A stretch of DNA of 64,000 nt. Source: Zygnema cylindricum (Eukaryota > Streptophyta > Zygnematophyceae > Zygnematales > Zygnemataceae). The position numbers and the translations under genes were made by a program. The notes below the pieces were generated by a model. That model worked only from the letters and a program-made list of their open reading frames with translations, made no database searches and had not been told where the DNA came from. Where the stretch lies: positions 89,389-153,388 of the forward strand of contig JBBHKE010002416.1 of NCBI GenBank assembly GCA_037447655.1, read 5' to 3'. Below are positions 9,442 through 46,240 of this stretch, one piece after another; position 1 is the first letter of the stretch; each line of letters begins with the position of its first letter.

Positions 9442-10951
9442 TTACACTGACAAATATATTCTCTGCAGTCTGACAAATCTGCTCTCTGTGAACTGAGCAA
9501 AATGTGGCAGGATCGTTGCAAAATCGTAGCAGGATCGGCCGTACAAAAGTACTGCCGCTTCGTCATACAAATAGAATATTGTCGCGGACGAAAAGATCGC
9601 GTCACGCTGCGCAAACATGTAATATTTCACGGACGCCAAATCGCGCTTCGCGAACCAACATTTCCTCGAAATCGTCTCACGTCTGATTCGTACAATTGAA
9701 CCGACAAGCTGAGGTCGCAAAAGTCAAAAAATTTCATACCCGAAACCGACCGTTTGTTTATTTTCAAAATCTAAGTAACCGACGCCCGACCAAGTTTTGT
9801 CACGCTCCAAAATTTTTAACAGTTAACCGACCGTCGTTTACGAAAAAAAAATTAACCAAATCTTGATTTTTCGCGACTAACCGTGCCCGCCCGTAACCGA
9901 AAAAGTACAAAATTAATCAATGTGCAACGGAATAAGCTAATAATTACGATTTGTCGCGTTCCCTAAGATTTACGAAATGAATAGTGTTACTACCGTGTCA
10001 GATTTGCGAGGCTTTGTCGCGTTCTCTAAGGTTTGCGAAATAAATAGTGTACTACTGTGTCAGATTTGCGACGCTTTGTCGCGTTGCGTAAGATTTGTGA
10101 AATGAATATTGTACTACCGTGTTAGATTTGCGACGCTTTGTCGCGTTCCCTAAGATTTTCGAAATGAATAGTGTACTACCCGTGTCAGATTTGCGACGCT
10201 TTGTCGCGTTCCCTTTGATTTGCGACGCTTTGTCGCGTTCCCTTCGATTTGCGAAATAAATAGCTTACTACAGTACCGTGTCAGATTTGCGACGCTAATC
10301 ATGATGTCACGTACTTCCACGATGCCAAAGAGTACAAAGTACAAGAATGTTGGATTATAGGGACAGTACAAAATTTTCATTTTTTTTGGTTTTTTGGTTG
10401 ACCGACCGTAACCAACCATTTTATTTTTCCTGGTGAATCAACCGACCGTAACCGTCGACCACCAAAATTTGACAACCGAATCCGTTCCGGATCCGGCGCG
10501 GGCGGTCGGTTAACGGTCGGTCACGGTTTCGGTTGACCGTTTGCGACCTTTGCCGACAAGTACAGTACCGTACATAGACGCGAACCGAAAATGTATCAAA
10601 CGAAACAAAAGCATAGATGTCGCACTAAAAACGAACCAAACATTTAGTGGCGCGATTTTGGCCGACGCCGATTCACCCAATATCCTAACACAACCAACCT
10701 CCTTTTTTGATAAAACAGCGTTGCGTAGTTGTTGAAGCAATATAAGTTAAGGGAATTGATCATGACAGTGACTGTTTTGGTTGCGTACAATCACTTACGT
10801 CATTTTGTCAAAAAACGTACGTGTGAAGTACACATTGGTACAAATAAAGTACCGTTGAGCATAAATTTGACGGTCAATCGGTTGGACATCTTTGACTTTC
10901 ATAATATTGTTTAAACCGCTTAAAATTTTGCCGCGCTTGCGAACGTCGACC
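9442..10951. repeat. CpG-rich repeat region homologous, inverted, to the palindrome centre
   Basis: The stretch 9507-9680 resembles the reverse complement of about 11470-11617, and 10560-10710 resembles the reverse complement of about 11340-11440. Between them lie CGACCG-rich DNA and a tandem array. Together with the palindrome it forms a foldback-like structure. Base composition (frequent CG, CGCG) differs sharply from the AT-rich DNA to its left and resembles the CpG-rich gypsy LTRs further on. No protein domain is visible. Confidence 0.6.
9945..10300. repeat. About 63-bp tandem repeat array
   Basis: Five to six units contain TTTGCGACGCTTTGTCGCGTT, then a CCCTAAGATT-like stretch, a GAAATGAATAGTGTACTAC-like stretch and GTGTCAGA. 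The last units are shortened. Each unit has a short CG-rich dyad (GCGAC...GTCGC). Confidence 0.8.
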
Positions 10952-11998
10952 GTCATAATAAAATTAGCAATTCACACGGCCGGCGAGTGTTTACGGTAAC
11001 AAAACGGCGGCGACCACATGTAAATAAAATGGTTGCAGACAGTAACTTTTTGTCGTTATGTGAGCTCCACGGTGAGAGCACTTCGCCGCAAAATTGAAAT
11101 TGAATCGTCTAACTGTTACATTGAACTTAGACGCAAAGTGAAACGAAACCTATTGAAATTGAAAGTACTATAAGTCTCGTACGGAAATATTATAATGCAC
11201 AAAACGAAATAAACTTTTATAATAAAACGAACCGGCGTAAAAATATCATTTGAAATTAAATGAAAAAAATGAGCGTCGTCACGCGCGACGAAATCGAGCC
11301 ACGCTATTTACGAATCAACATACTTACATTGACAGCGAAATGTTAGGATATTGGGCGAATCGGCGTCGACCGAAATCGTGCAGTCAAATTTTTGTTCGGT
11401 TCGCGTCAGTTATGTTTTGTTTCTTTCGGCATTGTACTTTTGTGTGGTTCGGTTTGGTGCGAGCGCCGACCGGTATTCATTTGTTCGAGTCGCACGCTGG
11501 TCGATTGCGAGGAAATGTTGGTTCGCGAAGCGTGACGCGATTTTTTCGTCCGCGGATGTAATTTATGTGTACGACAAAGTGGCAATACCTTTGTACGGCC
11601 GATCTTGCTACGATCTTGTCAATGTAATATGTTGATTCGTAAATAGCGTGGCTCGATTTCGTCGCGCGTGACGACGCTCATTTTTTTCATTTAATTTCAA
11701 ATGATATTTTTACGCCGGTTCGTTTTATTATAAAAGTTTATTTCGTTTCGTGCATTATAATATTTCCGTACGAGACTTATAGTACTTTCAGTTTCAATAG
11801 GTTTCGTTTCACTTTGCGTCTAAGTTCAATGTAACACTTAGACGATTCAATTTCAATTTTGCGGCTAAGTGCTCTTACCGTGGAGCTCACATAACGACAA
11901 AAAGTTACTGTCTGCAACCATTTTATTTACATGTGGTCGCCGCCGTTTTGTTACCGTAAACGCTCGCCGGCCGTGTGAATTGCTAATTTTATTATGAC
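10952..11998. repeat. Large palindrome: two 382-bp inverted arms around a 284-bp centre
   Basis: The left arm 10952-11333 is the near-perfect reverse complement of the right arm 11618-11998; I saw only scattered mismatches and one small indel. The arm tips read GTCATAATAAAATTAGC inward. The right tip abuts the 3' end of gypsy copy 1, at the same GACA-NN-TGTC-type junction that is seen at 23192 and 46238-46241. It may be two head-to-head gypsy LTR starts, or a foldback element. No transposase frame was found. Confidence 0.8.
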
Positions 11999-12000
11999 AG

Positions 12001-12235
12001 TTGTCGAGCGTGCCAGCAAACATCAGAGGAGGGCCCACTGCCCGGGTAATTGGCATTGGAGTCCTGCAACCAACCTTCCCCAAAATGATGCTCCCCACAA
12101 CCATGCATGTGCCCAATGTTGCCCGCCTTGTTTCTGTAAGCATGCATGCAAAGGTGGGGATGAGTGCTTAGGGAGGGCAAAAAGATATCCCCTCCCCCCC
12201 TCTCCTTCCCCCTCCTAGCCAGGGGAAAGGAGGGG
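12001..12235 (-). other. Gypsy 3' tail: G-rich tract and about 190-bp segment to the TGTC junction
   Basis: On the minus strand a G-rich, polypurine-like tract (about 12235-12187) is followed by roughly 190 bp ending CGCTCGACA. Then come two bases and TGTC of the next unit. The same arrangement is seen in copy 2 (23193-23410) and in gypsy K (46038-46241), where the 192-bp tail demonstrably repeats the LTR end. Confidence 0.55.
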
Positions 12236-12320
12236 ATCCTTAGAGGTGGAGCCGGGTCCTTTATTTTCCCCCCTCTTAGTCACTGTGACTAAGACTTTCG
12301 AATAATTACCCCCCCAATTC

Positions 12321-12464
12321 GCAGTTCCCGCAGAACGAGAGAGAAGAGGGTTTAGGACGAGGGTCCCAAGAGGAGGGGAGAGAAGACTGATGCCAACACT
12401 GGTCGCATCGATCACACACCAATACAGATTTTTGGGAGGAAGATGAGAGGCATTCGGAGGAACA
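12321..12464 (-). pseudogene. Frameshifted PHD finger C-terminal to gypsy integrase (copy 1)
   Basis: In the frame shifted from the open stretch before it, the minus strand reads a Cys4-His-Cys3 pattern. It has a first Cys pair (CSSEC), then about 11 residues, CDRC, four residues, His, HQSS where HQSC is expected (sixth ligand lost), and a final FCGNC. This matches the intact PHD of gypsy K in order and spacing. PHD fingers usually bind histone H3 tails (family knowledge). The last ligand pair is followed by Gly-rich residues and a stop. A frameshift upstream uncouples it from integrase. Confidence 0.6.
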
Positions 12465-13706
12465 CAAAGGGGGATCAGCAAAATAGGTAAGGTGGAAAGT
12501 AGGTACGTCTTCAAATCCTAGGAGGTGACAGGGAGCCTCATTGATCTATTTTACCTTGATCCTTTGCCCATCCTTCCCTTCAAGTGTCAAGACCCCCTTA
12601 TTGGAGACTTCCACTACTTTCAAAATCACCCTCCCCGCTGAAATGTCTAGAATATCCTTTTTCTGTTGCATCCGATACACGAAATCCCCGTGCAGAAATC
12701 GCCGTTACCGCGGGACAAAATTCCCGCTCCAGCGTTGCGAATACCCGAGTTGATCTCGGTACTGAGCTGCTTGTAAATTCCCCATGGCCAGAGGCATTTC
12801 CCGGTGAAATACCTTGGCCCTGTCGGCAATCAATTTTTCGACCGTTCCCTTGCCGTCCATCTCCGGAAGGACCACTGCTTGGGCCGAGGCAGCGCCGGGG
12901 AGGATGGGATGCCGTCCGAACAAAATGAAATATGGATTGGACGAGTAGAGGGATGGTTGGCGGCTGAATCAGTACCCCATGGCGATCGAAGGTACCCTTT
13001 TATCCTAATCTCCTAGATCCTCTTCCACAACATATTTACGAAGTGATCGCTTCACTGTCTGCACGCACCTTTCGGCCAAACCGTCGGCTTGGGGGTGGTC
13101 TCGGCTGGTCAACCGGTGGTCGATGAGGTACAATTCCAACAAGTTGGAGAATTCTCCAGCAAATTCGAAGCCCTGGTCGGTTTGAACTTCGGTTGGGGCC
13201 CCAAATTGGGAAAGCACTCTTTGCAAGAATGGTTGCGCAATCGCCTTGGACCCCTTCCTGGGTAAGACCACCAATTCGATCCACTTGGAAAAATGCTATA
13301 TCATTACCAATACAAAGCGGTTCCCTCGTCTGCTAGTGGGGAGAGGACCCAACAGATCTAGAGACCACCGATAAAACATTCCCCTGATGGGAAGGGAATG
13401 AAGCTGAGCACTTCTCTTTTTGTCGAAAGCTGCTTTGACTCGGTCAGAGGAGGAACACGTCTGCACAATCCGGTTGACTTGGGTCCGCAACCCGTGCCAC
13501 CAGTACAATCCTGCGACCAAGGAGGTGGTCCGTTTCTGCCCAAAATGGCCACAGTGCCGGTGAAGGTTAAAAATAAAAGTCTCCCTGTCGGCCGGGGGAG
13601 GAACCATTTTCCTAGTCCCATCTGCCCATTTCCGGATTAAGATGCCCCTTTCCCACTCGTATGCCGCCATTCGTGTTTGCACCTGAGATAACTGCACTCC
13701 TGACAA
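12465..13706 (-). pseudogene. Gypsy integrase, copy 1
   Basis: The minus strand reads an H2C2 zinc-binding start (HRHCGHFG ... TCSSSD, with one Cys changed to Ser). The core follows with LDLLGPLPTSRRGNRF (first catalytic Asp), TDQGFEFAGEF (second Asp) and HPQADGLAERCVQTVKR (catalytic Glu). A stop falls after RFVLVMI near 13296. A second stop falls after the core near 13005, and the C-terminal domain continues in another frame (12705-12923; FGRHPILPG). Integrase would insert the cDNA into host chromosomes. Here it is inactive. Confidence 0.8.
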
Positions 13707-14419
13707 ATGCGGAAGAGGGAAACCTTGTTGGACAGATTAGAGTGCATCAGGATCGTTCAAAATATCTTTCCGTTCGGCCCCTATTGGCGCTTGCCCCTCC
13801 ACGTCTGCAAAGAAAGTTGACATTTCCCCCCCAGATTAAGGAAGCCAAATAAAGGCAGAGGAAGCTCGAATGAGTCCCAAACTGATTTCAGGGTCCTCAT
13901 CATGGCAGGCCCCGGTGGAATCTCTAGTGGAAGGGTCAGGATTTTTGCTAAGTCCGTCGGCATTCCCATGAATCTATCTATCCTGGTGGATTATGTCGAA
14001 GTCATTTTCCTGCAGTATTAACACCCACCTGGCAAGCTTGCCAGTGAGCTTGCTGTTTTCCTAATCCACTTGAGAAGCTGGTGATCCGTGATCAGAGTGA
14101 AATGGATTCCGTATAGGTATGGTCTGAAGTGTTGGATGGCCCATACCGCCGCCAGTAATTCCCCGTGATAGCTGCTGTAATTCCCTTCCGCTCGGTTATT
14201 ACTCCTGCTGGCGTAAGCTACCACATATTCGGCACCAACATCATCCAGTTAGGCTAAAACAGCTCCCAATCCAAACCGCCTCTAATCACTGTAAAGCAGG
14301 AAGGGTCTTTGGTGATCAGGCATTCGGAGCACTGAGTGTTACTTCAGGGAATCCTTGAGGAACTGGAAGGCAATATGTTGCTCCTCCATCCACTGCCACT
14401 CCTGGTCTTTCCGCAGCAA
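13707..14419 (-). pseudogene. Gypsy RNase H, copy 1
   Basis: Recognisable motifs are VAYASRSNNRAEGNYSSYHG, LLAAVWAIQHFRPYLYG and LITDHQLLKWI, typical of the RNase H that follows gypsy RT. Several frame breaks are present. Compare the longer open version in copy 2 (24802-25419). Confidence 0.75.
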
Positions 14420-15712
14420 CTAGTTCACACGCTGAGCATGGCTGCTAAATTCAGAGATGAATCTCCGATAATAGTTAGCTAGACCTAAGAACATGCGGAG
14501 TGCAGAGACGTCCTGAGGAGGGGGTAGGGCATCAAGGGCCGCAACTTTGACCATATGGGGACCCACTGTCCCGGGTGTAACTTCGTGTCCCAGGTAAATA
14601 ATTTTGTGCACCCCAAAAATTCCCTTACCCGGGTGACATTTCAAGCCCGCTGCTTGGAGAGCTCGAAGTACAATCTGTATGTGCTCCAAGTGTTCCTCGA
14701 AGGTCTTCGAGAAGATAATCACATCGTTTATATAGCACAGTGCACAGTCAATTCCTCGGAGTGCCTCGTCCATGGCACGTTGGAATTTGGCTGGCGCATT
14801 CTTCAACCCGGATGGCATGTAGGGCCATTCATACAACCTGGACCCTGCCCAAAAAGTTGTCATTTCCCGGTGCTTTGGCTCCATCGCAATCTGGTGGATC
14901 CCATTCTTCATGTCTAGGGTGGAGAAAATGGTGGCCCCGGCCAGCGAGTCAAAAATCTCTTCCGGGGTAGGCATTGGGTATCGGTCAGGTACAGTTGCCG
15001 TTTTAAGCATCTGGTAATCTCCACACATCCGAAAGTCTACCGTTTTCCCAGATGAGTCCTTCTTGGGTGGGAGAACAGTTGGAGACTTAAATCCATGGAG
15101 TCCGGTACGTTTTTGAACCAATCTTGCTTCTACCAGAGTTTGTACCTTTGCCGTGATGAACTCCTTTTCCTTGAAACTGAGAGGGTACTGCTTCTGCCAA
15201 ACAGTAAACGTCTCGTCTATTAAACCGATTCGAAAAGGGGTTCCTTTGTAGATGCCTACGTCGGTATCTAACCAAGAGAACACTTGTTTGTTCTTCTCCA
15301 ATAGGTTGGAGAGCTGGGTCTTTTGTTGAGGGTCCAACTGCTCCCCTAAGGTCCAATCCATCTTTCCGGGTTCCACCGCTGCCCACGCCTCCGGGGGTCT
15401 ACCCCAGCGGGAGATATCGAATTCCATCCCTACCGGCAGGTCTATCTCATCTCCTCCCGTTAGAATGCTACTGCTAACAACTTCCGATAAGCTGTCCCTT
15501 TCCGAGCTTCCACTCTCCCCCACTGAGGAATCCCTTAATTTCGGTATAATGTTGGGACTGGAAAATTTTGATGATAAAAACTGTTTTCTTGCCTCCCTCC
15601 CCCCCTCAAGCTGCAAGTAGGCCTGCACCGCTAACAACTTTGGTGCTTGAAGGTAGCGATTCCTCGATTGCGGAGACCGTAGGCTAGAGAAGGCCAGAGA
15701 ATGTTTTATCAC
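14420..15712 (-). pseudogene. Gypsy reverse transcriptase, copy 1
   Basis: A 430-codon open stretch covers the RT domain: SPTVLPPKKDSSGKTVDFRM, PMPTPEEIFDSLAGATIFST, LDMKNGIHQIAM, PSGLKNAPAKFQRAMDEAL, CYINDVIIFSKTFEEHLEH and FLGLANYYRRFI. The catalytic box reads YIND instead of YxDD, so the first of the paired Asp residues is Asn. Copy 3 has the same Asn. The frame is the same as the upstream methyltransferase, separated only by a TAG at 15713-15715, so both belonged to one polyprotein. RT copies the element RNA into DNA. Confidence 0.85.
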
Positions 15713-16666
15713 CTACGTTATTGCATTTAGATCCATGCTTTGTCCGAGTAGGCTGCACCGCTGGAGGTCTGAAATACCTGGTGCCGCCGTGCTGGCTGGT
15801 TGGAATCCCATGGCTTGTTCTCGTTCTGTCACCGTTGGCGTTGTCCAAATTCCATTTCAACTGTCAAATATCATTTCGGCCGCTCTCTTTCGATACGCAT
15901 GGCTATTAGGGAAGGAAACCGATGTTGGTAGTGCTCGCCGTGGTGCGCCTGGTTGGTTGCAGTGGAAAAACAGAGGACGATCAGCCTTAGTTATTGGAGT
16001 GGCCATCCGTCCTGGCCCTAAAATTTGATGCAGGGTAATCTGGGGATCTGTTTGGTGGTTCTGTAAGAGCTGGTTCAGGACTGACAGAGGTATCAAATTG
16101 GTCCAGTATGCCCGAACTTTGTGAGCCCTGGATCCTTGTTGCGCCGCATCGAAAACAAGTGGAGCTCCTAAAATCTGCATGAGTTTATTCTAGCTATTTG
16201 GGACTTGTTTTCTTTTTTCATCTCCCGGGTGGACATTCTCCAAAACGTACCCCACTAGTTGGTGTTGGGACTGCTGCAGCCAGGAAAGTAATTTGATCAT
16301 CTGGAAGAAGGTTCGACTTCTGCTGTCCTGATGTCCCTCGCCTTTCCCGGCTAGAGAGTATCCTAGACATGGCCATCCTGCAATCACCAAATCCACTCGC
16401 TCCAGCATAGCGAGATGTGGCTTCAGGATATTGTCTATATTTTGCGGAACACTTCGGTGAGATCTGCAGATGGCGGATACCGGAAGTTGCTGGGGATACA
16501 ATTGGTGGAGTTGTTATAGTCGGTATTCACTGACGGCCCGAGCATCCGGTGAAATTTCCACGGCCACATATGACTCCACTTTATGCCCAGCTTTCAAGAC
16601 AGCTTCGAGGTCCGAGCTAATTCCAAAAAATAGGGATAATATCCGGGGTCCTGAATCCGGGATAGA
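15713..16666 (-). pseudogene. DNMT3-like C5-cytosine methyltransferase inside gypsy pol
   Basis: In one reading frame with protease and RT, the minus strand shows methyltransferase motifs in DNMT3 order. These are motif I (ILSLFFGISSDLEAVLKAG), II (YVAVEIS), IV with the catalytic Pro-Cys (LVIAGWPCLGYSLAGKGEG), VI (GYVLENV), VIII (SRAHKVRAYWTNL), IX (TEREQAMGF) and X (CSLLGQSMDL). The order is not permuted as in plant DRM enzymes. It would methylate cytosine in DNA. Stops at 16514-16516 (TAA), 16190-16192 (TAG), 15857-15859 (TGA) and 15713-15715 (TAG) kill this copy, but no frameshift is needed to read through. The length (about 310 residues) fits a bare catalytic domain. Confidence 0.85.
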
Positions 16667-17371
16667 TAATGACACCACTTGTCGATTGAATTTTTGATTT
16701 TCGGGCGGAACTTCTGAAGATTCCAACCGAGGTTCTTTTTCCTTCACAAAAACAGCTGTAAAGGATTGGTCCACTTCCTGCCGAAGTTTTGTTATTAGTA
16801 ATAATCTGTTCTGGTATCCCTCTTCCCACCGCTTGGAAATAGGGAATTGCTATATTATGTCTGCGATATCGGTGGCGCTGGCGAGCAGTTCCGTGGGTGT
16901 GTGGGTGGCAAAGACGGGATAACATCCTGCGACGGGAGCATTATCTTTCCCCCTATTCCATAGATCCAGGGGAACCACCACCTTGACTCCTTCTGGATCC
17001 TCAGGATCCCGAACAGTAAACTGCTCCTTCCACACACTTAATCCCATATTCACCCTTGTCCAGGTGGCCATTCCCAATAAAATCTCAAACTGCTTACCTT
17101 CCACCACCAGGAAGGGAAGTTGAATTCGGACCATTTGAACTGCGTCTTCGGCAAACTCTATTAACATAGCTTTGATTATTCCGTGTACCGGTTGGCTCCC
17201 ACTCCTAACAGTACTTAGGCAAATGTCACTGGGGAAGATTTCCGGTCGGAGTTCTTCAGGCATTTGCTGCAGAGCCGATGTGGTGATTAGATTTGGGAGT
17301 GCTCCTGTATCAACAACTGCGTCTTGATACCCGTCGTATCTGTTGAGTTTGAAATTCCCCGTCCGGTTGAG
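16667..17371 (-). pseudogene. Gypsy retropepsin and linker to methyltransferase, copy 1
   Basis: The frame contains AVVDTGALPNLITTSALQQM, with the aspartic protease DTG triad intact, and ends the protease fold with FEILLGMATWTRVN. After a TAG at 16850-16852 the same frame continues through QFPISKRWEEGYQNR and SFTAVFVKEKEPRLES into the methyltransferase. The protease would cut the Gag-Pol polyprotein. The upstream join to gag is broken by a foreign 51-bp piece. Confidence 0.8.
16850..16852 (-). other. TAG codon between protease and methyltransferase, shared with copy 3
   Basis: The context is ATA TAG CAA TTC. The same TAG with CAA TTC follows the protease in copy 3 (31399-31401), although the two copies differ at many other positions. 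It is either an inherited dead stop or a programmed readthrough site; the context comes close to the leaky UAG-CAR-YYA type. Confidence 0.5.
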
Positions 17372-17422
17372 TGAAACTCTGAGACCTCCATAGGACCTCA
17401 AAGTAGGCAGCTCACACGAAGC
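17372..17422 (-). other. 51-bp patch resembling a copia LTR end / gag start inside gypsy
   Basis: The stretch TGAAACTCTGAGACCTCCAT and what follows closely matches the inner LTR end at 4584-4635 (gag start and leader). In copy 3 (near 31918-31955) the gypsy sequence is uninterrupted and different. A fragment of copia LTR has thus replaced or entered gypsy coding sequence, shifting the frame between gag and protease. Confidence 0.65.
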
Positions 17423-18300
17423 CTCTAAGATAACCCTGACCCCTTTGTGTTTAGTCCCTATCCATCATAGGGGTCTTTTGGTCTGCTGACCAAAAAACGG
17501 ATCTGGCCTGATCGGCTCGGTGTTTCTCCCATCTAGAATGGATTTCCTCTCTGAGGGCCTTGATGAGAACTTCCTCCGGCAAGTAATGAGAAGAGGCATG
17601 TGTTTTCACGTGAGTGAGAGCGTAGGGCATTAGATGCCTTACTAACATCACTGCTGGTTTGGAGGAAGGAGGTTGAATTTTTGGCGACGAAATGGGGGAA
17701 TCTGCTGGTTCCGCCGGTTGATTTTCCTTCTCCCCCCCCTTTGCTTCCTCATTTTTTTGGTCGGATTGTGGCGCTGGCGGCGTTTCTAGCGTGTTATCCT
17801 CCGGGCGTTCCACCAAATATTTTTTGAACTAGTCTGGGTTGTCACGCGTCTCTTCCTCCTTTGCTAGTTCCTCCATCTTGCTTATTTTAATTGTACTATA
17901 ATTTTCGAATCCATGAGGCAGTTTCTTTGCGGCAGGTGGAGGTGGGTTTGTAGATTTTATCCCGAGACCTATGTTGTCGTACAGGATGACGGCCCTGGGG
18001 GTGAAGGATAGAGGTCTAGTAGTTTTCCTGTTCTGGTCTCGTGGAGCGAGCTTTTGCCTGTCCCTTCGCTGCTCCAAGGTTGAGTTGCGGAGCTGCCTGC
18101 GATTGTCCCCCACACCGACATTCCAAGCTCCAGAAAGGAAGGTCTGTGCGTGATGTGCCTTAGGAGGTTCCATGTCCCACCCCATCACCTCGTCGTCGTC
18201 TTCGCCCGCTGCAGTTTCCTGTTCAAGCTCCGCCAGCTTCTGTAGTAATTTTTGTTTTCTCCGGTGGAGTTTCTAGGCGACCGTCAGAGCGGGAGAACTG
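17423..18300 (-). pseudogene. Charged linker between gag knuckles and protease
   Basis: The frame continues from gag: a basic stretch (RRDRQKLAPRDQNRKTTRP), FTPRAVILYDNIGLGIKSTN, an acidic Pro/Glu-rich part and HLMPYALTHVKTHASSHYLP. No catalytic domain is recognisable. Copy 3 retains the same linker as one open frame with protease (31399-32508), showing that gag and pol are fused without a frameshift in this family. Confidence 0.65.
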
Positions 18301-18305: not shown

Positions 18306-19019
18306 CTATCCTAATCGCAGCGCTGCAAATTCTGTAGCCATGGCTGCCATTTGCTGGCACTGCTGCTGGATGATAACCTCCGGGGTTAGTCGGGCTTGAC
18401 CTGTTGGCTGTCGTTCTGGGTTTTTCAGGGTGCGGCGTCCCCAAGGGTAAAGAAGCTGCAGTGAGAGAGGATTCACGGCAATTTCACCTTCTTCGATGAA
18501 CATTGCATATTGCATCATCTCTTTAGGAACTCCATTCTTTCGGAAGCATTGCCCTTCCTTGTGACCCATGAAACCGCAAGCCTCACACTTGGAGCCCTCG
18601 GTAGTACATTTGTCCCTCAATTCATTGGAGATTTGCGCGTCATCAAATTTTGGAAGTTTTATCTGTCGCAACTGGACTTGGGACATCTTTGCAGTCCCAG
18701 ATCATGGCGTCGGCCGGTAATTGTCTTTGTTAACCGGTGTTTTAACGTCTGACCCTCCTCCTTGCTTCCTTTCTTCCTGCCTCTTTGTCCTTTCAGCTCT
18801 CTCTTTCTCCCATTCCTTCTGCTTAAGAGCTAATTCCAGTTTGAGCTTGTGGGGGCATCGCTTCCATCCATGACTTGTTTGTTGACAGTTTAAACAGTTA
18901 TACAGGAAGACACGATCATCGGCCCCCATGGCAGGTTCGGATCCGCTATCCGCCACCTGTTTCCCCTTGAGCTTCCGCAAAGTTAAGAGTTCGGCCGACT
19001 CTTTATTTTTAGGAGGCAT
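18306..19019 (-). pseudogene. Gypsy gag nucleocapsid with two CCHC knuckles
   Basis: The first knuckle is CLNCQQTSHGWKRC and the second CEACGFMGHKEGQC, both CX2CX4HX4C. They flank a Lys/Glu-rich helix (KLELALKQKEWEKERAERT). Such knuckles bind the element RNA for packaging. One stop after NYRPTP separates the two halves. The frame is continuous with the capsid upstream. Confidence 0.8.
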
Positions 19020-21908: not shown

Positions 21909-23192
21909 AGCTGGCTGTAGAAGAATATCTAAATCCCCTTATAGAAGTACTCTGCCCTGAGCACCTATCCTCTTTAACCTAAAGAGACAGGTTGTTGTTT
22001 CACTACTGTGACGATCTGTTGAAAGTCTAACAAAAATCCTCTCAAAATCCACTATTCTGGTACAAAAGATTCTGGTAATCGACCTCGGAAGAAACCCAAC
22101 CGAAGCCCCAAAAAAGACTACCAAAGAGAGAATCAAGATACTTCCACTCAGAATAATGAAAGGATAGAAATATAAAAATGCTGTCTTAGAATTAACAATA
22201 TCACCTTGCCCTTAGAAAAATAGAGAATAAAGATAGAATATGGAATAATAGCAAGCGAGCTCAACCTACCCCCAAAATGTAACGCAGACAACAAAAGGAG
22301 ACGAAATCTCTCTCTGAAAACCCCGGAACAGGTAAGGCCTCCTTAACTCCTCGGTTTGCGCGACCCGGAACCGGCAAGACCCTTTTGGGTTTCAACAAAC
22401 ACCAGTCCCCAAATCGCCCAAAACAGGAAAGACAGTGCGAACCACCTAACCGGACTACGATTTCCACAAAGGACGGATGAAAACCAAGATGGCAATAGGG
22501 TCACAATCACATACAAAACAAAAGTTCTCCACATGAAAGTTTGCTGGAATTTCTAGGATTATTTTTAGTAGTGAAACAACAACCTGTCTCCTTCGGCCCC
22601 AAGTGCCTTATGCAAGCAAAGTTTGTCCTACCGACAGTACTAAAGTCAAAGCAATACCAGGAGCCAATCACCGGCCAGGAATTGTTATCGTACGGACATA
22701 AGACAAAACAGGTTGTACTACACCCATGGCAAAAAGTTAGGCGACTATCTTCGGCTAGATTAGAAGCCATGTGTTTTCTATGACACAATCCTGAGCAACA
22801 AAGTTCTAAATTTACGTGAAACACCTAACTTTTACTCACATTAATAAATGCTCTACCCGGCAGGTGGACCTGAAATAACGTCCTACTAATAGCCAACAAC
22901 AAAATCTACTAAACTATCCCAAAAGTTACGTGGTGTTCCACAATATAGCCCCCAAAGGGACAGGTGGCAACTTGTCGCATGTAACAAGATGATAATATTT
23001 GGAACGGAATAACTCCGTTGTCTGGCCTCCGTTAGGCGCGAAATAGAGTGCGTTCCGCTCACATAAGAAAATAGAAGAATCTGGCCCGGCCGAGTGCGCT
23101 CGTTTCCCCGTACTTGAATTGCCGTACAGAGGAAGAAGGCCCAAAAATCCTTGGTAAAATAAAAGGTTGCCTGTGAAGCACACGAGCTTGAC
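21909..23192 (-). repeat. Probable gypsy LTR/leader between copies 1 and 2
   Basis: On the minus strand the region starts with TGTCAAGCTCG at 23192, right after the tail of copy 2, and runs toward the 5' ORF of copy 1. It would be both the 3' LTR of copy 2 and the 5' LTR of copy 1, the same LTR-sharing layout as the copia array. It contains a 24-bp inverted repeat (21984-22007 and 22567-22590). The inner LTR end was not found. Confidence 0.45.
21984..22590. repeat. 24-bp perfect inverted repeat, arms 559 bp apart
   Basis: The arm GAGACAGGTTGTTGTTTC plus six more bases at 21984-22007 recurs as its exact reverse complement at 22567-22590. The role is unknown. Confidence 0.8.
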
Positions 23193-23497
23193 AGCTGTCG
23201 AGCGTGCCGGAAAACATTAGAGGTGGGCCCACTGCCCAGGTAATTGGCATTGAAGTTCGCGTCAACCTCCCCGAGAATCTTCACAACAATGCATGCACTG
23301 CACCCGCCTTGTTCGAGTGCGCATTGCAAAGGAGGGGATGAGTGCTTGGGAAGGGCGAAAATATATCCCCTCCCCCTTCTCCTTCCCCCCGTGGCCGGGG
23401 GAAAGGATGAAATCTTTAGAGGTGGAGCCGTGTCCTTGATTTCCCCCCCTGTTAGTGAACAGTGACTAAGACTTTTGAATGTTTACCCTCCGAATTC

Positions 23498-23641
23498 GCA
23501 GTTCTCGCAGAACCAGAGTGCTAAGGGTTTAGGACGTGGGTCCTAAGAGGAGGGGAGACAAGACTGATGCCAACATTGGTCGCATGAATCACTGACTTGT
23601 ACAAAATTTTGGGAGGAAGACGAGAGGCAGTCACAGGAACA
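23498..23641 (-). pseudogene. Frameshifted PHD finger, gypsy copy 2
   Basis: In the frame shifted from integrase the minus strand reads a first Cys cluster (CSCDC), then SCDQCWHQSCL and a final WFCENCEFGG before a stop. The His and the HQSC, FCENC pairs are intact, but the third Cys position of copy 1 (CDRC) reads SDSC. Together with copy 1 this supports a PHD finger fused to integrase in the ancestral element. Confidence 0.6.
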
Positions 23642-24830
23642 CAAAGGGGGATCAGCAAAATAGGTAAGGTGGAAAGTAGGCTTGTCTTCCAATCCCCGGA
23701 TGTGAAAGGGAGCCACATTGATCTGATTTTCCTTGATCCTCCACCCATCCTTCCCTCCAGTGTTGATTTACCGTTATTGGAAACTTCCACTACTTTCAAG
23801 ATCACCCTTCTTGCTGAAATGTCCAGAGTGTCCCTTTTGTGTTGCATCCGGTACACGAAATCCCTGAAAGAAATCGCTGTTGCCGTGGAACAAAATTCCT
23901 GCCCTGGCGTTGCGAATACCAGATGTTGATCTCGGTGCAGGGCTGCTTGTAAATTTCCCATGGCCAGAGGGATTTGCCGGTGAAACACCTTGGCCCTCTC
24001 GGCAATCAGTTTTTCGATCGTTCCTTTATTGTCCATTTCCGGAAAGACCACTGCTAGGGCGGAGGCTGCGCCGGGTAGGATAGGGTGTCTTCCAAACAAA
24101 ATGAATTGCCGGCTGAAACTGTAACCCATGGCAATCCAAGGCACTTTTCTATCCCATTCTCCAAAATCCTCTTCCAAATCATATTTGCTTAGTGACCGCT
24201 TCACTGTCTATACGCACCTTTCGACCAAATCGTCGGCCTGTGGGTGGTCTCGGCTGGTCAGCCGATGGTCGATGAGATACAATTCCAACAAGTTGGAGAA
24301 CTCTCCCGCAAATTTGGAGCCTTGGTCGGTCAAAAAATTTGCAGGGGCCCCAAATTGGGACAACACTCTCTGCAAGAATGCGTCCTCAATCGCCATAGAC
24401 TTCTTCCGGGGTGAGACCACCAATTCGATCAACTTGGAAAAGTGTTCTATCATTGCCATGACAAAGCGGTTCCCTCGTCTGCTTGTTGGGAGAGGGCCTA
24501 GCAGATCCAGAGACCACCGATAAAATATTCCCCGGATTGGAAGTGAATGAAGCTGGGCACCTCCCTTTTTGTCGAAGGCTGCTTTGACTCGGTCACAAGA
24601 GGAACACGTCTGCACAATCCGGTTGATTTGGGTCCGCAACTCGTGCCACCAATACAATTCGGTGACCAAGGAGGTAGTCCGTTTCTGCCCAAATTGGCCA
24701 CATTGCTTGTGAGGACGAAAAATCACAGTCTCCTTGTCAGCCGCGGAAGGAACCACTTTCCTCGTCCCATTTGCCCACTTGCGGATTAAAATTCCCCTTT
24801 CCTATTCATATGCCGTAATTGAAGTCAGAA
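23642..24830 (-). pseudogene. Gypsy integrase, copy 2
   Basis: The H2C2 start (HKQCGQFG ... TCSSCD) is intact. The catalytic core has SLDLLGPLPTSRRGNRF, TDQGSKFAGEF and HPQADDLVERCV, with D, D and E present. A TAG near 24205 (CAG in copy 1) splits the core from a 227-codon C-terminal frame (23521-24204; ILFGRHPILPG, FHRQIPLAMGNLQAALHRD). This is a better preserved core than copy 1. Confidence 0.8.
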
Positions 24831-25858
24831 CCCGAGATAACTGCACTCTAGACAAATGGGGAAGAGGGGAACCTTGTTGGATAGATAAAACTACATCAGG
24901 GTCATTCCAAATGTCTTTTCCCTCAGCTCTTATTGGCGCTTGCCCCTCCACGTTTGCAAAGAAAGTCGACAGTTCCCCCCCAGATTGAGGAAGCCAAATA
25001 AAGGCAGAGTAAGCTCGAATGAGTCCCAAACTGATTTGAGGATCCTCATCGTGGCGGATCCCGGTGGAATCTCTAGTGAAAGGGTCAAGATTTCTGCTAA
25101 GTCCGTCGGTATTCCCATGAATCTCTCCGTCCCAGTGGATTATGTCGAAGTCATATTTCTGCAGTATTAACACCTTCCTGGCGAGCTTGCCAGTTAGCTT
25201 GCTGTTCTCCATAATCCACTCGAGGGGTTGGTGATCTATAATCAGAGTGGAATGGACTCCGTATAGGTATGGTCTGAAGTGTTGGATGGCCAATATCGCC
25301 TCCAGTAATTCCCCGTGATAGCTGCTGTAATTCCCCTCCGCTCGGTTATTACTCCTACTGGCGTAAGCTACCACATATTTGGCCCCAACATCATCCACTT
25401 GGGCTAAAACAGCTCCCAATCCAAACCGGCTCTAATGAATATAAAGGAGGAATAGTCTTTGGTGATCAGGCACTGGGAGCACTAGGTGTTGCTTTGCGGA
25501 ATCCTTGAGGAACAGGAAGGCAATCTGTTGCTCGTTCGTCCACTACCACTCCGGGTCTATTTGCACAACTGGTTAAGAGGCTGAGCGTGGCTGCTAAATT
25601 CAGGGATGAATCTCCGATAATAGTTAGCCAGGCCTAAAAATGTGCGGAGTGCAGAGACGTCCTAAAGAGGGGGAAGGGCATCAAGGGCTGCAACCTTGAC
25701 CATGTGAAGACCCATTGTCCTGGGGGGAACTTTGTGCCCCAGGGAAATATTTTCTGCACCCCAAAAAATCCCTTACCCGGATGACATTTGAAGCCCGCAG
25801 CTTGGAGAGCCCGGAGTACAATCTGTATGTGCTCCAAGTGTTCCTCGAAGGTCTTCGA
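24831..25858 (-). pseudogene. Gypsy RNase H and RT tail, copy 2
   Basis: A long frame (to 25419) holds GAVLAQVDDVGAKYVVAYAS, GNYSSYHGELLEAILAIQH and IIHWDGEIHGNTDGLSR, all typical of gypsy RNase H. Upstream, broken frames contain the RT end (TFEEHLEHIQIVLRALQAAG). The sequence stops at the junction with the copia LTR. Confidence 0.75.
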
Positions 25859-26598
25859 TAAAATACTATCTACTGAAATACGGCACCAATCATAATAGTG
25901 TATCGTACATAAGGTACAAGTGCCGATGTACTTTATGTACGGATATTGTACGACATGGCCAACAAGTCGACACATGCCATTTTTGGATTCGTTCTTGGAA
26001 TCCCAGGAGATGTCGCAATCCAATGTGATTTTGCCACTTGGCAATTGACGTGACGTCAACCGCAAACCGCCGAAAACCTATTCCACGATCTCGGCATGCT
26101 TCGTGGCCGTCCGAATAAGCCGGATTACAATCGTGACCGTCATAAATACTTCCGCAGTATTTGTTTCGCTTTCTAAACAAAATACGCAGTATTTGTTTCG
26201 GATGTTTCGTACGCCGTACTTTACAAACTGTGTCTATGTTTAAAGATCCGTTAAATGAAATAGACTACGTGTTAACATTTAAATACCTATCAAACTATAT
26301 ATCTCCAAGCATGATGGCAGACTTAATGGCTAAGGCTACAGGCTAAGTTGACGGGCGGTAGGTACCAGGGTCAAATCCTGTATACGTCAAGTTCTATTTT
26401 GGTAAATCTACCAAAATCTACAACCCGTAACTCTATCTCTAATCAGTATAGGCAGCCATGGCTCTAGCTCCCTCTTCAACCTTCAGTGACTACGACAAGT
26501 GTGGGAGCTGAAGAGAGAAGTTAGAGGCAGACCGCCTCGGCTTCTTTTCTGCATTTTGCAAAACCTAGAAAATACTAAAATAACCTTTTATTTCTACA
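25859..26598 (-). repeat. Inverted 5' portion of a copia LTR
   Basis: It aligns with about 1890-2648 in the same orientation as that LTR. It starts mid-LTR (ACTATCTACTGAA) and ends at CTACA (TGTAG as the LTR start on the minus strand). It includes GTAC palindromes and a tRNA-like B-box relic near 26370. Confidence 0.75.
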
Positions 26599-36730: not shown

Positions 36731-37570
36731 TCATAGGCTTTCTGAATTGGCTTGAAATTTCCTCTCACGTTTTAGATACTACAACCTATTTTTCTATTTA
36801 AAGTTCAAAACCCCACTCTGAAAGAGAACACGTAGAATATAATCCTTATATTATCTTCCGCCTTAGTTTCTATTATATTCCTAATATAAGATGCACAAGA
36901 GAAAGTCTCACCCCAAAACTTGAAATTTATCTTTTTATCCAACATCATAGATTTTGCACTCTCCTTTAAAGTTCGGTTAAGTCTTTCGGATACTCTGTTT
37001 TGTTCCGGGGTATAGTGAACTTTAAACTGACAAGATATGTCGTGTTCCCTTAAATAATTCGAGAATGCATTCGAAATATATTCTCCCCCGTTGTCGGACC
37101 GAAGAGGGAGAATCGACTTCGCGTGAAGCTTTTTTGCCCACGTCCGGAAATGCTTGAAGTGAGTGAACACTTCACTGTTCTCCTTCATAAAGTAAACTAT
37201 GCTATACCGCGAGATGTCATCCGAAATTGTAATTAGGAACCGGGTGCAACTAAGGGAAGGGACTTTAGACGGTCCCCACACGTCTGAATGAATAATTTGC
37301 AGCAAATCTGTAGCCCGGTTATCCGCGGTTTGAGGTAGGGGCAGCTTGTGAAGTCTCCCTAAAGCACAACCATCACATACATTAGAATCTTTTTTTCCTA
37401 ATATGACCCATCTATCATTTTGTGTTTCACCATTTTATCAAGTTTTTCGTGATGAACATGACAGAGCCTCTTATGCCACAAAACATTTTCCGGAATGACA
37501 CTTGAGTATGCAAAGTCAATTTCATTAGCCAAGTCCATCCGGTACAACAAGTTTGGGCCTCTAGTTCCTA
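36731..37570 (-). pseudogene. Copia F integrase
   Basis: This is a different copia lineage from E and D. Motifs are QIIHSDVWGPSKVPSLSCTR (first Asp), LRSDNGGEYISNAFSNYL (second Asp) and TPEQNRVSERLNRTLKESAK (Glu), so DD35E is intact. The zinc-binding start at 37310-37530 is broken by a shift. The C-terminal region runs out near the gap. Confidence 0.8.
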
Positions 37571-37571
37571 C

Positions 37572-37880
37572 CTAGGCTACTCTCCCTTCTTTTCTTACCA
37601 CCTTCTTCCCATTCTTTTGCAAGATTTCAAATCCTTTCATTTCAACCACAGAAGTGGAAAACAAAATTTTCTTAAACTTTGGAATATAGAGAACATCATG
37701 TAAGGTTCTCTTTACAATCTGACCATTGATGTCACATGCTAACTCCACGCTTCCCTTTGCCGTAGCCTCCACACCACTATCATCCGCGTAGTAGTTTCGA
37801 CGAGTCGGAATCGGAGTAAGGGTTTTGAAGTAAGCTCGGTTGCCGCACATGTGGGAAGAGCACACGGAGTCCATAATCCA
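37572..37880 (-). pseudogene. Copia F protease
   Basis: The frame reads MDSVCSSHMCGNRAYFKTL, then LHDVLYIPKFKKILFSTSVV, the usual copia protease layout. The active-site triad is DSV instead of DSG or DTG, the same in the duplicate at 48430-48731. The domain is probably inactive in both copies. Confidence 0.7.
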
Positions 37881-38099
37881 TCCATTCTCTTAAGGCCCCT
37901 CTATGAGATCTTTTGCAAGGGCAAAGAACTCATCATCTTTCGATTGCGGAAATCTGACCACATCATCTTTTTCCCCCAACGATTCGTCTTGTGGCGTCTC
38001 ATCAAATGCAAGGAACGCCGCATTTTTCACAGGCAGTTTTGGTGCTGACCCATTTGAAGGTGGTTCCTCCGATCGCACCTTCTATCGCGCACGATAAAT

Positions 38100-38889
38100 T
38101 CTTGTTTCACACGCATTTATAAATGCTGGGCACAGCCGGAAAACATGACCTTGACCGAAGCAATAGACACACCTATCATATTGCCTATAATTAGGATTAG
38201 GGGTGAAGTTTCTATTTCCGGAAAATCGAGCCAGCCTATTTGTCTAAGCATTGTACGCTACCGCTGATTTTCCACCATTCAATGCTATCTGAGTTGCCTC
38301 TTCCTATAGAATGTAATCTTCAGCTACAGTTATATTCCATCTAGCCTTCTCCAACCTTTTCAATTGTTCCGCGGCTCCTTTATATTCAGCAGGAAGCCCT
38401 CTCATTAAAATCATATCTTGATGATAGGGAGGAAAATTCCCCCCGGAACATGCATTTTCCGACAAAAAAAGCTTAAAGCAATTACAATAGGAGTTCATAT
38501 CACCCTCGGTATACTTATAATCCCAAATTTTCCCAGCTGTTATAACCTCATTCTGCTCACTAGCTAGGACATATGACTCCCGCAAAGCCTTCCATATATC
38601 AAATGCTTTAGAGATATTGATATATGTCATGTTCAGATCTTCGGACAAGAGTAGTTTGAGAATTTGCAATGCATCCTCATTTTTCTTTTCAAAATCAGAA
38701 TCCATATCAGGAAGAACACCGGAAATCACATCATACAATCTCACTTGCTTAAGGTAAGACTTGGTCAAATCCGCCCAATATAAATATTTTTGGCCATTAA
38801 ACACCGGGATCTGTGAGGGTGGGTCCGTGACCTATTAATTTGAGGCGACCGGTGACCCATAGGAGGAAGAAGAAGCACCAGCAGTTGCC
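38100..38889 (-). pseudogene. Copia F gag
   Basis: From an ATG at 38887-38889 the frame reads MATAGASSSSYGSPVASN, two stops, then QIPVFNGQKYLYWADLTKSY and a gag body (FDIWKALRESYVLASEQNEV, MILMRGLPAEYKGAAEQL). A CCHC knuckle CVYCFGQGHVFRLC lies near 38130-38170. The GGTCACGGACCCACC after the two stops looks like a decayed version of the half-tRNA primer site. Same content at 48955-49752. Confidence 0.75.
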
Positions 38890-40959
38890 ATAATATTAAG
38901 ATTACAAAAGAGGAAACTCTCACGGAAACCACAAAAGGACCGACTTCAAAGTGATCCCCCAAGCAAACAAGACATACACTAGATCTGCAAATTTGCCACA
39001 ATATTAATAGTATAACAAATAAATCACATGCACAATTTCATAGGGTTCTGCCAAAAGATCACAATGATCTTGCAATTGAAAAAGACAGAAAAACGTCTTT
39101 GCAGTTTTCCATTCAATGAATTCCTAACTCCAAAATATTCTAAGTCCAACATATACAAAGTGAACCTACAACTGATCTAAACCATACCATATTTTTCCGT
39201 GGTGTGTCGGTACACTAAACATTAATCAAACTAAACCCCTCCATCTACCGTACAAGTATTTACATCAATCCTTAACCCTAGCCGCTTCTAAAGTACGCAG
39301 TCAAAGTTAGTCCGCAGAATTGACGGCTCGGTCAATATTTCTCTTCCAAAAATGACGGCGAACTTCGTCCGCCGTCCGCGTATTCATTCATCACCGAAGA
39401 TGAACCTCCACGTGTAAATCTGGCCCTTTAATTAAATATGTACTGTGTCAACCAAGTCAACCAAGCTTGACTTCCCCACGGACCGACACGTGTATATAGA
39501 GTGTACCAAATTTGTCAACTCCCTTTGGAGTTACATACCACACCACATCTTGTCTACGTCAACTCAGTCTGTACACAAAAACTAGCTTAGTGTAGACACT
39601 CTTTCTCACACACGAGATATAAAGAGGACTAAAGGTTTCCAAAACCAACATGGCCCAAGTAACGGAATAGCAACCCGCAAATCATAATGGTCTTCATACC
39701 GAAATGCGAGGTCACGCATCTGGATATCAAAAAGCATGCAAAAGTGTGACAAGGACATAGTGTCCTTGAGACCCGAAAAAAAAAACTGATTTTTACCTCC
39801 TTCGGTGTCCATGGACGAGGCCATGTCCACGAAAAAGAGATCGGAGTTAGCGTGTATGGTTCCGCCCAACAAAAAACGCGAAGGCATTAGATTTAGATCC
39901 CGAATATCAAGGGAGTCTATGTCAAAGTCTTCCCCCTAGGTGTGGGAAGAGGACGAAGAGACGGATGATGTAGATCTATATGTGGTGGTAATACTAGATC
40001 TTTGTTGTAATTTAGAAATCTTTATTTCAGTAGATAGGGCTAAAATAACTTAAAATATTTTCTAAGTAGTCTGCTGTAATACTTACCTTAATTAGTGTTA
40101 CAGTAGCAAAAGTACAATAAAGTATATTGTACTTTTACAAGAACACGTGTCGGCAAGAGAACGTATGCAGGTTTTACAGAGTGGCGCCGACAGTCAGCCT
40201 CACGCGTCACGCAGTTGAAAATTAGATTCACAGGATCGGACGAACAAAATCTGAACCGGGTATTCGGGAAAATTATGGTACGGTTCGACCGTACCATCGT
40301 TGATTGAATTTGTTCCAGCGGACGCGATTCACTTGGGACCACAATTGTGGTTCATGAGGGACCACAAGCGTGATTCACTTGGGACCACAAGTGACGAAGC
40401 ACTCAGATGCTTCGTACTACACGACCACAGTCAGCTGGACTTTAACGACTACCGCTAACTAAGCATCTGGAACGTTTTGTGTACGGTTCGATATCTAAAA
40501 ATATCTGAATTTATATTGTTTTGTAGTTTAGTGTAATAAAAAATAGTTTTTCTTTAATTAGGTTTTTGGAAAATAGTAATTAGGGTTTTTGAGGTACTAC
40601 GGTACAGTAACGTACAGGTAGGATACTTTGTCGTTAGTCATGGTAATAACCGCAGTAACAGTTACTTAAATTAGTGTAGACCAAAAGATACACATTGTGA
40701 GCATATAACTTAAGACTTAGCCAATTTTGTAGTATCCAGTTTAGGGAATATGATTTTCTATGAGCAGTTTTTGGGAAACTTCCAGACTTCATATCTTATG
40801 GTTTACTGGGTCATTTGGGCTACAATTTTTGGGAATTATTATTTTACTCTCTAGTGTATCATTGTGAGAAAATTGAGGCATATTGGCATTTTTTGTCATA
40901 TTTTGTGTAAGTTGAAAGTTGGCTGTTATGTAGGTGCTTGATAGCTTCTGCTGTTTTCC
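38890..40959. other. 2.1 kb between head-to-head copia F (minus) and G (plus)
   Basis: Gag F reads left and gag G reads right from this region, so it probably holds two back-to-back LTRs, but I could not find their outer ends. A short repeat GATTCACTTGGGACCACAA occurs twice near 40330-40390. One open frame (39606-39887) is described separately. The whole region recurs at 49753-51814. Confidence 0.45.
39606..39887 (-). CDS. Unrecognised 93-residue ORF in the F/G spacer
   Basis: The ORF (MPSRFLLGGTIHANSDLFFV ...) is kept open in the duplicate at 50461-50742 with only a few changes. No retroelement domain or known family is recognised. It could be a captured host gene fragment or an antisense LTR frame. 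Confidence 0.25.
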   Translation of the reverse strand: MPSRFLLGGTIHANSDLFFVDMASSMDTEGGKNQFFFSGLKDTMSLSHFCMLFDIQMRDLAFRYEDHYDLRVAIPLLGPCWFWKPLVLFISRV

Positions 40960-41250
40960 ATGTCTACTTACACTACTGGTGCTAGTCCTTCTGCAGCAGC
41001 GCTAGTTCTAGAACAACAGGTTATGGGCAATTCGTCAAGAATTCGTATCTTTAATGGCTAAAATTATGCGTACTAGGCGGCGATGGTTGAATCGTCGTTT
41101 AAAACTGCTGACTTATTGGGGGTCTTCGATGGCTCCCTTGATGAAACAGATCCAAGTTGGGCGAAAAAAAATTCAATGGCAAGCAACAATCTAATTCTTT
41201 GTATTTCAAAAAACCTGGTCATGTTGTTGAAATCACTAGATTTAGGGGAG
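40960..41250 (+). pseudogene. Copia G gag start fused to a polypurine tract
   Basis: From the ATG at 40960 the frame reads MSTYTTGASPSAAALVLEQQ, then VMGNSSRIRIFNG across the LTR end (CA at 41017-41018) and a 10-nt half-tRNA primer site GGTTATGGGC. Two stops follow, then FKTADLLGVFDGSLDETDPS. The coding region jumps directly to TTTAGGGGAG at 41241-41250, so nearly the whole internal region is deleted. The duplicate at 51815-52625 carries the TRIM. Confidence 0.65.
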
Positions 41251-41432
41251 GTATTTTCTAGGTCTTAATTAAAAAGGAAAAGAAAAGCAGAGGCAGCCTG
41301 CCTCCACCTTCTCTCTCTGACCCCCATACTTGTTGTAGTCACTGAAGGAGAGAGAGGGCGGTGGAGCCATGGCTGCCTTAGCTCCATAGGCAGGACTTAA
41401 GAGTGACCTAAGTCACTCTCAACCAAAAAGGT

Positions 41433-41520
41433 TGAGTCCGGCAGGACTCGAACCTCCGACCAGTAGGGCGAGGCTGAGTCGTCAACCCTTACCAGTTTGT
41501 CGTAGTAGTCCGTTAGGATA
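41433..41520 (-). other. tRNA-like Pol III promoter relic in LTR H
   Basis: The minus strand has CTGGTAAGGGTTGA (A-box-like) and GGAGGTTCGAGTCCTGCC (perfect B box), then GGACTCAACC and TTTTT, a Pol III type terminator. The T arm nearly pairs (4 of 5). It is antisense to the element, as in LTR E, and also present at 52810-52895. Confidence 0.55.
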
Positions 41521-41995
41521 CATAGGGTTCGATATCTATTTAAACAATAGATAGACGACTAATCTGATTAACGGAATTACAAATAGGATACATAGAAACT
41601 AGTTGGGGAATTTAGTGCGCACGAAACAAATGTACCGGACATTTGTTTTCGTACGGCTGGGAATTAAAGCCGACTTAGATCCGACGGCTCACATCATCGC
41701 CGAGACCTTGGAATGGTTGCTTTGGCGGTTTACGGATGTAACATAACCTGGCGACACATGGCAATATGTCATTGGGAAGCCGGAATCCTGGGGAGCGTGA
41801 GAACAAGTCCGTAGGAGACAGGCGTCCACTCCATGGCCTTGTCGTACACAGGCCGTACAGAAAGTACATCGGCCATAGTACCTTTCTGTACTATACACTC
41901 TTCTGATTGGTTTTGTACATCAGTAGATAGGGGTTGTGAGAGGGTTTGGGACTTAGTGGATTGTGGAGGTAGCCGCCTCTCTCCCAACAAGCTTG

Positions 41996-42003
41996 TATAA
42001 ATA
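41996..42003 (+). promoter_or_regulatory. TATA box of LTR H
   Basis: TATAAATA lies about 200 bp upstream of the gag ATG and in the expected place for the LTR promoter. Equivalent TATAAAT motifs occur in LTRs C and D. Confidence 0.55.
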
Positions 42004-42197
42004 TTGGCATCTTTGCCGCTCGATAATTAATCGCCTGGTTAGGTGTTTTCAGTGATTCTTTATGCTGTGGACTCAGGGGAGTCCGGACTGCACAGGGGTG
42101 GAGTCAAATTATCTATTTATCTGCTAGGGTAGCAGTTTCTCTCGTTGAAAGTGGGTTAGTCAAAAACTACCTAGAGGCTTCCTCATTCTTGGTCGAA

Positions 42198-44117: not shown

Positions 44118-44144
44118 TGTCATGCCGCATGGTATCGGACGCAT

Positions 44145-44345
44145 GCGCGCACAACATTTTGCATGCGTACACGATATCGCGCACGCACGCACAATATTGT
44201 GCTCGCGCGCGTGATATTCTGCATGCGTGCACAATACAGTGCACGCACGCGCAATATTGTGTCCACGAGCACGATATCGTGCACGCGTTCGCGATATTCG
44301 GCGTGCGCGTGATTTCATTCACGCGCGCACGATATCATTCTCGCA
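44145..44345 (+). repeat. CpG-rich imperfect repeats in gypsy K U3
   Basis: Recurring units alternate GATATC or AATATT cores with CGCACGCACGC/CGCGCG arms (for example CACGATATCGTGCACGCG). CG dinucleotide density is far above that of the copia sequences around. The same array is at 46268-46468. It reads as spurious Cys/His/Ala-rich ORFs. Confidence 0.75.
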
Positions 44346-46031: not shown

Positions 46032-46037
46032 GGAGCT

Positions 46038-46238: not shown

Positions 46239-46240
46239 GT

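Follow-up and report, generated by a model that had tools for sequence, protein, structure and literature searches.

The window examined in this study, a 64-kb stretch (64,000 nucleotides) of the Zygnema cylindricum genome, carries a DNMT3-class C5-cytosine methyltransferase (MTase) between the protease and the reverse transcriptase (RT) of a Ty3/gypsy element on the minus strand. This element, hereafter copy 1, is decayed, and its recognizable features, given in the reading direction of the element, are as follows:

18855 to 18896, minus strand: gag CCHC zinc knuckle, identified by pattern
18546 to 18587, minus strand: gag CCHC zinc knuckle, identified by pattern
16853 to 17464, minus strand: aspartyl protease of retroviral type, in the MTase frame (PF13650 0.013 and PF13975 0.017, both below cut-off)
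16850 to 16852, minus strand: TAG at the precise border of protease and MTase, with CAATTCCC after it; common to copy 3 and to genome families A and B
15716 to 16849, minus strand: MTase segment of the pol frame, with three internal stops; catalytic domain at about 15716 to 16645
15713 to 15715, minus strand: TAG at the MTase/RT border, a position open in sister copies L182 and L183
14423 to 15712, minus strand: RT with N-terminal linker (RVT_1 1e-22)
14048 to 14392, minus strand: RNase H (PF17919 8.4e-29, PF17917 5.8e-26), with the frame broken nearby
13299 to 13736, minus strand: integrase zinc-binding H2C2 domain (PF17921 1e-12)
12453 to 13301, minus strand: integrase core and C-terminal part (rve 5.3e-6, below cut-off)
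12321 to 12452, minus strand: PHD finger, degenerate, at the C-terminal end of the integrase (PF00628 0.12, residues 284-327)

The protease of a sister copy gave a profile match of 2.1e-4, likewise below the cut-off, and the copy 1 integrase matched an integrase-PHD sequence at 45018 to 45938 with 42% identity by tblastn. In total, one gypsy lineage is represented in the window by three partial, decayed copies, all on the minus strand, and the other two show the following features:

23189 to 25865, minus strand: partial copy 2, with the end of RT, RNase H, integrase and a PHD remnant; matches 11995-14717 at 84% DNA identity
30230 to 32604, minus strand: partial copy 3, with the end of gag, protease, an MTase remnant and part of RT; matches 14076-18114 with an internal gap, at 84% to 89% DNA identity
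31126 to 31398, minus strand: first 91 residues of the MTase segment of copy 3, through motif I, with 81% amino acid identity to copy 1

The gap in copy 3 is 1.6 kb long, is joined at about 31136, and removes the remaining MTase together with the RT N-terminus, and the copy keeps the protease and the same TAG as copy 1. The possibility that copies 2 and 3 are one element split by an insertion was rejected, because they share about 640 bp with 87.5% identity and are thus separate copies. The dN/dS ratio between copies 1 and 3 for the shared MTase piece (85 codons) was 0.28 in comparison to 1.13 and 0.94 for the other frames. Among the window copies, the ratio was 0.22 to 0.28 for the integrase, 0.24 for RT in its frame, 0.40 for the protease and 0.58 to 0.71 for RNase H, whose frames are broken, and the value of 0.60 for gag/linker was no better than that of the control frames (0.54 and 0.81). 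Within the window, no LTR pair was found for these copies and no primer-binding site was found for copy 1.

Of 782 candidates from a PF00145 search of the 352.8-Mb assembly containing the window, at least 123 were scored as matches, all of which exceeded the cut-off and one or more of which is a host gene, and a search with the window MTase as query yielded at least 109 scored matches of 1915 candidates with 60% to 88% identity besides the window copy itself, both figures being lower bounds in which unscored candidates are not taken as copies. Among the 109 scored matches to the window MTase, 21 were free of stops. The order protease-MTase-RT-RNase H was observed in all 20 ten-kb loci, and all six domains including the integrase and the C-terminal PHD finger were present in 17 of the 20, with the PHD finger alone missing in two and both integrase and PHD missing in one, for loci which were picked mostly for long open frames and are biased toward intact copies. 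The arrangement is thus the Ty3/gypsy pol order of protease, RT, RNase H and integrase (the last not found in one of the 20 loci), with the MTase inserted between protease and RT, and it bears out the first-pass annotation, which had placed the MTase inside a gypsy pol. The genome search for intact copies proposed there returned open frames of 1520 and 1525 aa in family A, running from the stop/MTase through the PHD finger, and of 2395 aa in family C, running from gag through the PHD finger.

A total of 42 rows were fetched; four of them duplicate a location and L177 is not an element, leaving 37 distinct loci. Based on best match, 17 of these were assigned to family A, which is the family of the window in a broad sense, six to family B and 14 to family C, counts that reflect the choice of loci fetched and not genome shares. 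The MTase identity was 51% between A and B and 42% between A and C, and the identity between A and C was 50% for RT, 64% for RNase H and 55% for the integrase. The one non-element among the eight loci cut out from the PF00145 search, L177:1498-1797, is an exon of a chromomethylase-like host gene, whose best match was a maize-type chromomethylase with 3.4e-29 (entries 4fsx/4ft2, which we take to be maize ZMET2) in comparison to 1.2e-12 for the next DNMT1 chains (6x9i, presumably human DNMT1), which makes a host of the green lineage likely.

The MTases of families A and B contain SAM motif I, Pro-Cys motif IV and ENV motif VI in unpermuted order, and the Pro-Cys of motif IV was read in 23 of 23 distinct A/B loci as well as in window copy 1. 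Motif I precedes motifs IV, VI, VIII and IX/X, by which a DRM-type permuted enzyme was rejected, in agreement with the earlier assignment of this sequence to an unpermuted DNMT3-class enzyme not resembling DRM. Among solved structures, the MTase is closest to DNMT3 by sequence and fold, with the best structural match to DNMT3A/3B; DRM and DNMT2 were absent among the 50 structural matches listed, which excludes neither of them. When sequences beyond the PDB are included, the scores of phage and bacterial enzymes equal or exceed that of human DNMT3A, and phage DNMT3-like enzymes align along the whole MTase length. By eye, the surroundings of motif IV (G-K/Q...D-R-S..FF) at phage loci L001, L002 and L008 are nearer to the element than those of DNMT3A. 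No relative of the MTase was confirmed when viral and genome contigs were scanned with patterns built from one sequence.

The open MTase copies are under purifying selection, family C included in the copies tested. The dN/dS ratio for open domains was 0.10 to 0.36 among family A copies and 0.12 for one family B pair. The MTase domain is open in four family C copies, of which two are nearly identical, and dN was 0.11 to 0.16 between the non-identical open copies, with synonymous sites saturated (pS about 0.8). In family C, motif IV reads Glu-Cys in 14 of 14 distinct loci in place of the canonical Pro-Cys, and the fold and the other motifs are as in family A. The Glu-Cys state is taken to be old, since at least two base substitutions separate Pro from Glu and the state extends across copies of saturated divergence. 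That the family C MTase is constrained although the canonical catalytic proline is missing speaks against plain methylation by this family. DNMT3L and plant DRM3 are DNMT3-class relatives retained without normal catalysis, and family C may share this trait with them, although both are cellular regulators and not transposon proteins.

The PHD finger that had been noted in the same pol is degenerate in copy 1 and intact in sister copies. The C4HC3 pattern with a PF00628 match over the cut-off was found in family C copy L179 (1.5e-9) and in the window at 45639-46208 (2.3e-12). For family A, the ligand pattern is present in L182, L183, L193 and L198, and the scores of 21.5 and 17.5 bits for L182 and L183 fall below the Pfam cut-off of 24. 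A further feature of the window is the following:

44118 to 46980, plus strand: family C-like derivative, in which two 740-bp direct repeats (98.5% identical) enclose an integrase core together with an intact PHD finger

The repeats of the derivative (44118-44857 and 46241-46980) were taken as LTRs, its C-terminal sequence is as in family C, and it is possibly a non-autonomous integrase-PHD unit. The end pieces of family C copy L186, likewise interpreted as LTRs, show 99.4% identity across 362 bp and are cut by the ends of the stretch, and no LTR pair was found in the other nine of ten stretches tested, for which 10 kb may be too short to hold both LTRs. The identities of 99.4% for the L186 ends and 98.5% for the derivative repeats make some of the insertions look young. 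Chromoviruses likewise carry a chromatin-reading module behind the integrase according to the main text of the REXdb plant LTR survey (PMC6317226), theirs being a chromodomain in comparison to the PHD finger here, and the terms 'PHD' and 'methyltransferase' have 0 occurrences in that main text.

The MTase segment of families A and B starts precisely where the protease frame ends, with a stop codon in 25 of 25 copies (23 distinct genome loci plus window copies 1 and 3). The stop was TAG in 23 copies and TAA in two (L200 and L208), TAGCAATTC was read in 21 of the 25 and CAATTC follows the stop in 22; some of these copies are near-identical and do not represent 25 independent events, and the A and B prototypes are just 51% identical in the MTase. 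In both families QFPIS stands right after the stop, and the protein sequence common to A and B begins directly at this point. The post-stop Gln is CAA, yet CAG outnumbers CAA in the family A frame of L183 (57 to 34), and the post-stop Phe is TTC, yet TTT outnumbers TTC in the family B frame of L204 (14 to 4); conversely, family A more often writes Phe as TTC and family B more often writes Gln as CAA, so that each choice is odd in one family only. A hairpin starting 6 nt after the stop codon was found in family B, with z of -3.1 to -5.3 in four of four copies folded, and 17 of 17 pairs are possible in five of six loci and 14 in L190, although the B loci differ so little that this is thin as covariation. 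For family A and the window copy, post-stop folding was no better than that of shuffles (z of -0.5 to 1.3, six of six folded). Family C copy L179 is open through the protease/MTase border, without a stop.

A conserved in-frame stop with a conserved 3' context, which is the sequence criterion for programmed readthrough, is therefore present in A and B and suggests UAG readthrough as the simplest reading of this stop. The tobamovirus readthrough context is CARYYA, with UAG-CAA-UUA as the example. Similar to tobamovirus and retroviral Gag-Pol readthrough, an in-frame UAG with CAA stands here between upstream and downstream products, and the family B hairpin is a further likeness to readthrough systems. 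The differences are that CAAUUC of A and B departs from CARYYA in the last base (UUC) and that the stop lies after the protease and before an MTase, unlike the readthrough stops of retroviruses and tobamoviruses. Reassignment of TAG to a sense codon, which has occurred in some ulvophyte algae, is unlikely, because the frames of 1520 and 1525 aa contain no further TAG, although Gln is encoded 91 and 95 times in them.

In general, the data establish the architecture and copy number of this gypsy lineage, the constraint on its MTase, the conserved stop of families A and B and the Glu-Cys motif of family C, and we consider it probable on balance that families A and B rely on readthrough, cis methylation and PHD targeting and family C on an altered role. 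In A and B, ribosomes would mostly stop after the protease and a minority would pass the UAG, giving an MTase-RT-RNaseH-IN-PHD product at a low ratio to Gag-protease; some retroviruses set their Gag-Pol ratio by stop readthrough. Judged from sequence, the function of the MTase is most likely methylation of the element's own DNA, in cis, on either the cDNA in the particle or the fresh insertion. A methylated element would be marked like host heterochromatin and thereby tolerated, and the PHD finger may help the integrase to choose chromatin. The family C domain (Glu-Cys) could have been retained because its role is catalytically altered, or non-catalytic and similar to that of DNMT3L. A more specific version, which we offer tentatively, is that a single ancestral capture gave rise to a pol with both a writer (MTase) and a reader (PHD), with A and B catalytic and UAG-metered, and with C non-methylating and DNMT3L-like after the catalytic proline was given up. 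If this were true, active and inactive MTases would be used side by side by elements of one genome.

In a 66-row tree that included 12 of the 17 extracted element MTases, the element MTases formed one clade (100/100) apart from DNMT2 and HhaI (96/97), in a topology with long stems (3.8 and 3.5 changes per column) and with some rows, family C among them, flagged for composition. One capture, which would have taken place before A, B and C parted, is supported by these comparisons. The insertion of a host DNMT gene fragment into one gypsy copy, or a chance frame, would agree with the broken state of the window copy, with the 91 MTase-segment residues of copy 3 and with copy 2 ending short of the region, but it is decisively contradicted by the copy number, the constant position in 20 of 20 loci and the purifying selection; we rejected it as having practically no probability, and the MTase, whose absence from other copies the first-pass annotation had named as a sign of such an insertion, is present in many copies. 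Capture from a phage or bacterial DNMT3-like gene and not from a host DNMT3 is a possible origin, to which we attach some weight short of an expectation. It would fit the match to PHROG 116 (E=8.6e-16), the more phage-like surroundings of motif IV by eye, and the scores of the best viral/prokaryotic ORF, which were 94 bits for family A in comparison to 79 for human DNMT3A, 80 in comparison to 54 for the window copy, 87 to 59 for B and 84 to 63 for C, although these scores set a large viral/prokaryotic set picked for likeness to the element against a DNMT3 set of two human sequences, in a comparison without charophyte or bryophyte DNMT3. Two further results speak against this origin: a clade of the element MTases with DNMT3A/3B, represented by two human sequences, was not rejected (AU p=0.374), and the best structural match is to DNMT3A/3B.

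The A/B stop could also be a true terminator, in which case MTase-RT-IN-PHD would come from its own mRNA (spliced or with an internal start) or from re-initiation, as in spumaviruses. The ending of the protease frame at the stop in all 25 A/B copies is equally compatible with termination, and a Met is present 19 codons downstream of the stop in the prototype of family A, but there is no Met from the stop to motif I in family B copy L173, the protein sequence common to A and B starts right at the stop, and CAATTC is kept in 22 of 25 copies despite the preference for CAG in L183 and for TTT in L204 (with the converse for the other codon), which makes termination rather improbable to us and leaves readthrough as the preferred reading. 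An action of the MTase in trans on the host, either reshaping host methylation or defending the cell against other DNA, has been proposed for retrotransposon DNMTs in the available text of PMC5890265 and PMC6338049, and many copies could give a large dose; the MTase of intact copies, however, shares a reading frame with RT, integrase and PHD and is thus tied to the replication complex, and we regard the trans action as unlikely.

The kind of element described here is already known. KnitGypsy-Dnmt3 of Klebsormidium nitens (de Mendoza et al. 2018, PMC5890265) has, according to the available text of that paper, an unpermuted DNMT3-class MTase in the Pol of an LTR Gypsy in several copies, and its MTase is under purifying selection and gave no methylation in yeast, a result judged inconclusive by the authors. 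The present elements share with it the unpermuted DNMT3-class MTase in a gypsy Pol of a streptophyte alga, the multicopy state and the purifying selection, and are found in a different host genome of 353 Mb. The main text of PMC5890265 contains neither 'PHD' nor 'protease', so the place in Pol and the PHD finger are not comparable, and the available text mentions no conserved stop and no Pro-to-Glu family; the repeats of KnitGypsy-Dnmt3 are DIRS-like according to a figure legend in PMC5890265, in comparison to the 740-bp direct repeats around the family C-like derivative. The same text describes SymbioDIRS-Dnmt3 and SymbioLINE-Dnmt of Symbiodinium as C5-MTase-bearing retrotransposons, and the SymbioDIRS MTase as methylating CG in yeast; these are DIRS (tyrosine recombinase) and LINE elements, whereas the present ones are gypsy elements with an rve-type integrase. 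These three systems agree with the earlier statement that MTases were known from charophyte and dinoflagellate retrotransposons, and the available text of PMC12344493 also reports DNMT3 embedded in retrotransposons of streptophytes and dinoflagellates, the LTR ones being named Copia.

Among the listed titles and abstract beginnings of the open-licence literature, no report was found of a PHD finger and an MTase in one pol, a combination which had been guessed to be undescribed, of a stop between protease and MTase in gypsy, or of a Pro-to-Glu MTase family. Relative to the literature found, the new features are thus the pol with both PHD and MTase, the A/B stop, and the Glu-Cys of family C without the stop. 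The lineage, which has become abundant here, lengthens a very small list of retrotransposons carrying the enzyme class that silences them. It also provides two natural contrasts in one genome, a putative readthrough stop or none and Pro-Cys or Glu-Cys, which make the question of why a transposon carries a DNA methyltransferase testable by comparing families in the same host.

Some further features were observed in the window. The segment at 22050-23365 is a putative LTR, as a guess only, lying between the 5' side of copy 1 and the 3' side of copy 2 in a tandem-like manner, and no second copy of it was found in the window. A foldback element with arms of about 380 bp that are 98% complementary occupies 10949-12001, and its end is where the similarity between copies 1 and 2 ends. 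Two 5-kb repeats (37259-42217 and 48115-53591) are 97% to 98% identical, and one of them carries, at 52029-52543, two copies of a 229-bp unit that includes a tRNA-Gln(CTG) gene; these copies have a spacing of 286 bp and are 99.6% identical, and the unit is missing from the other repeat.
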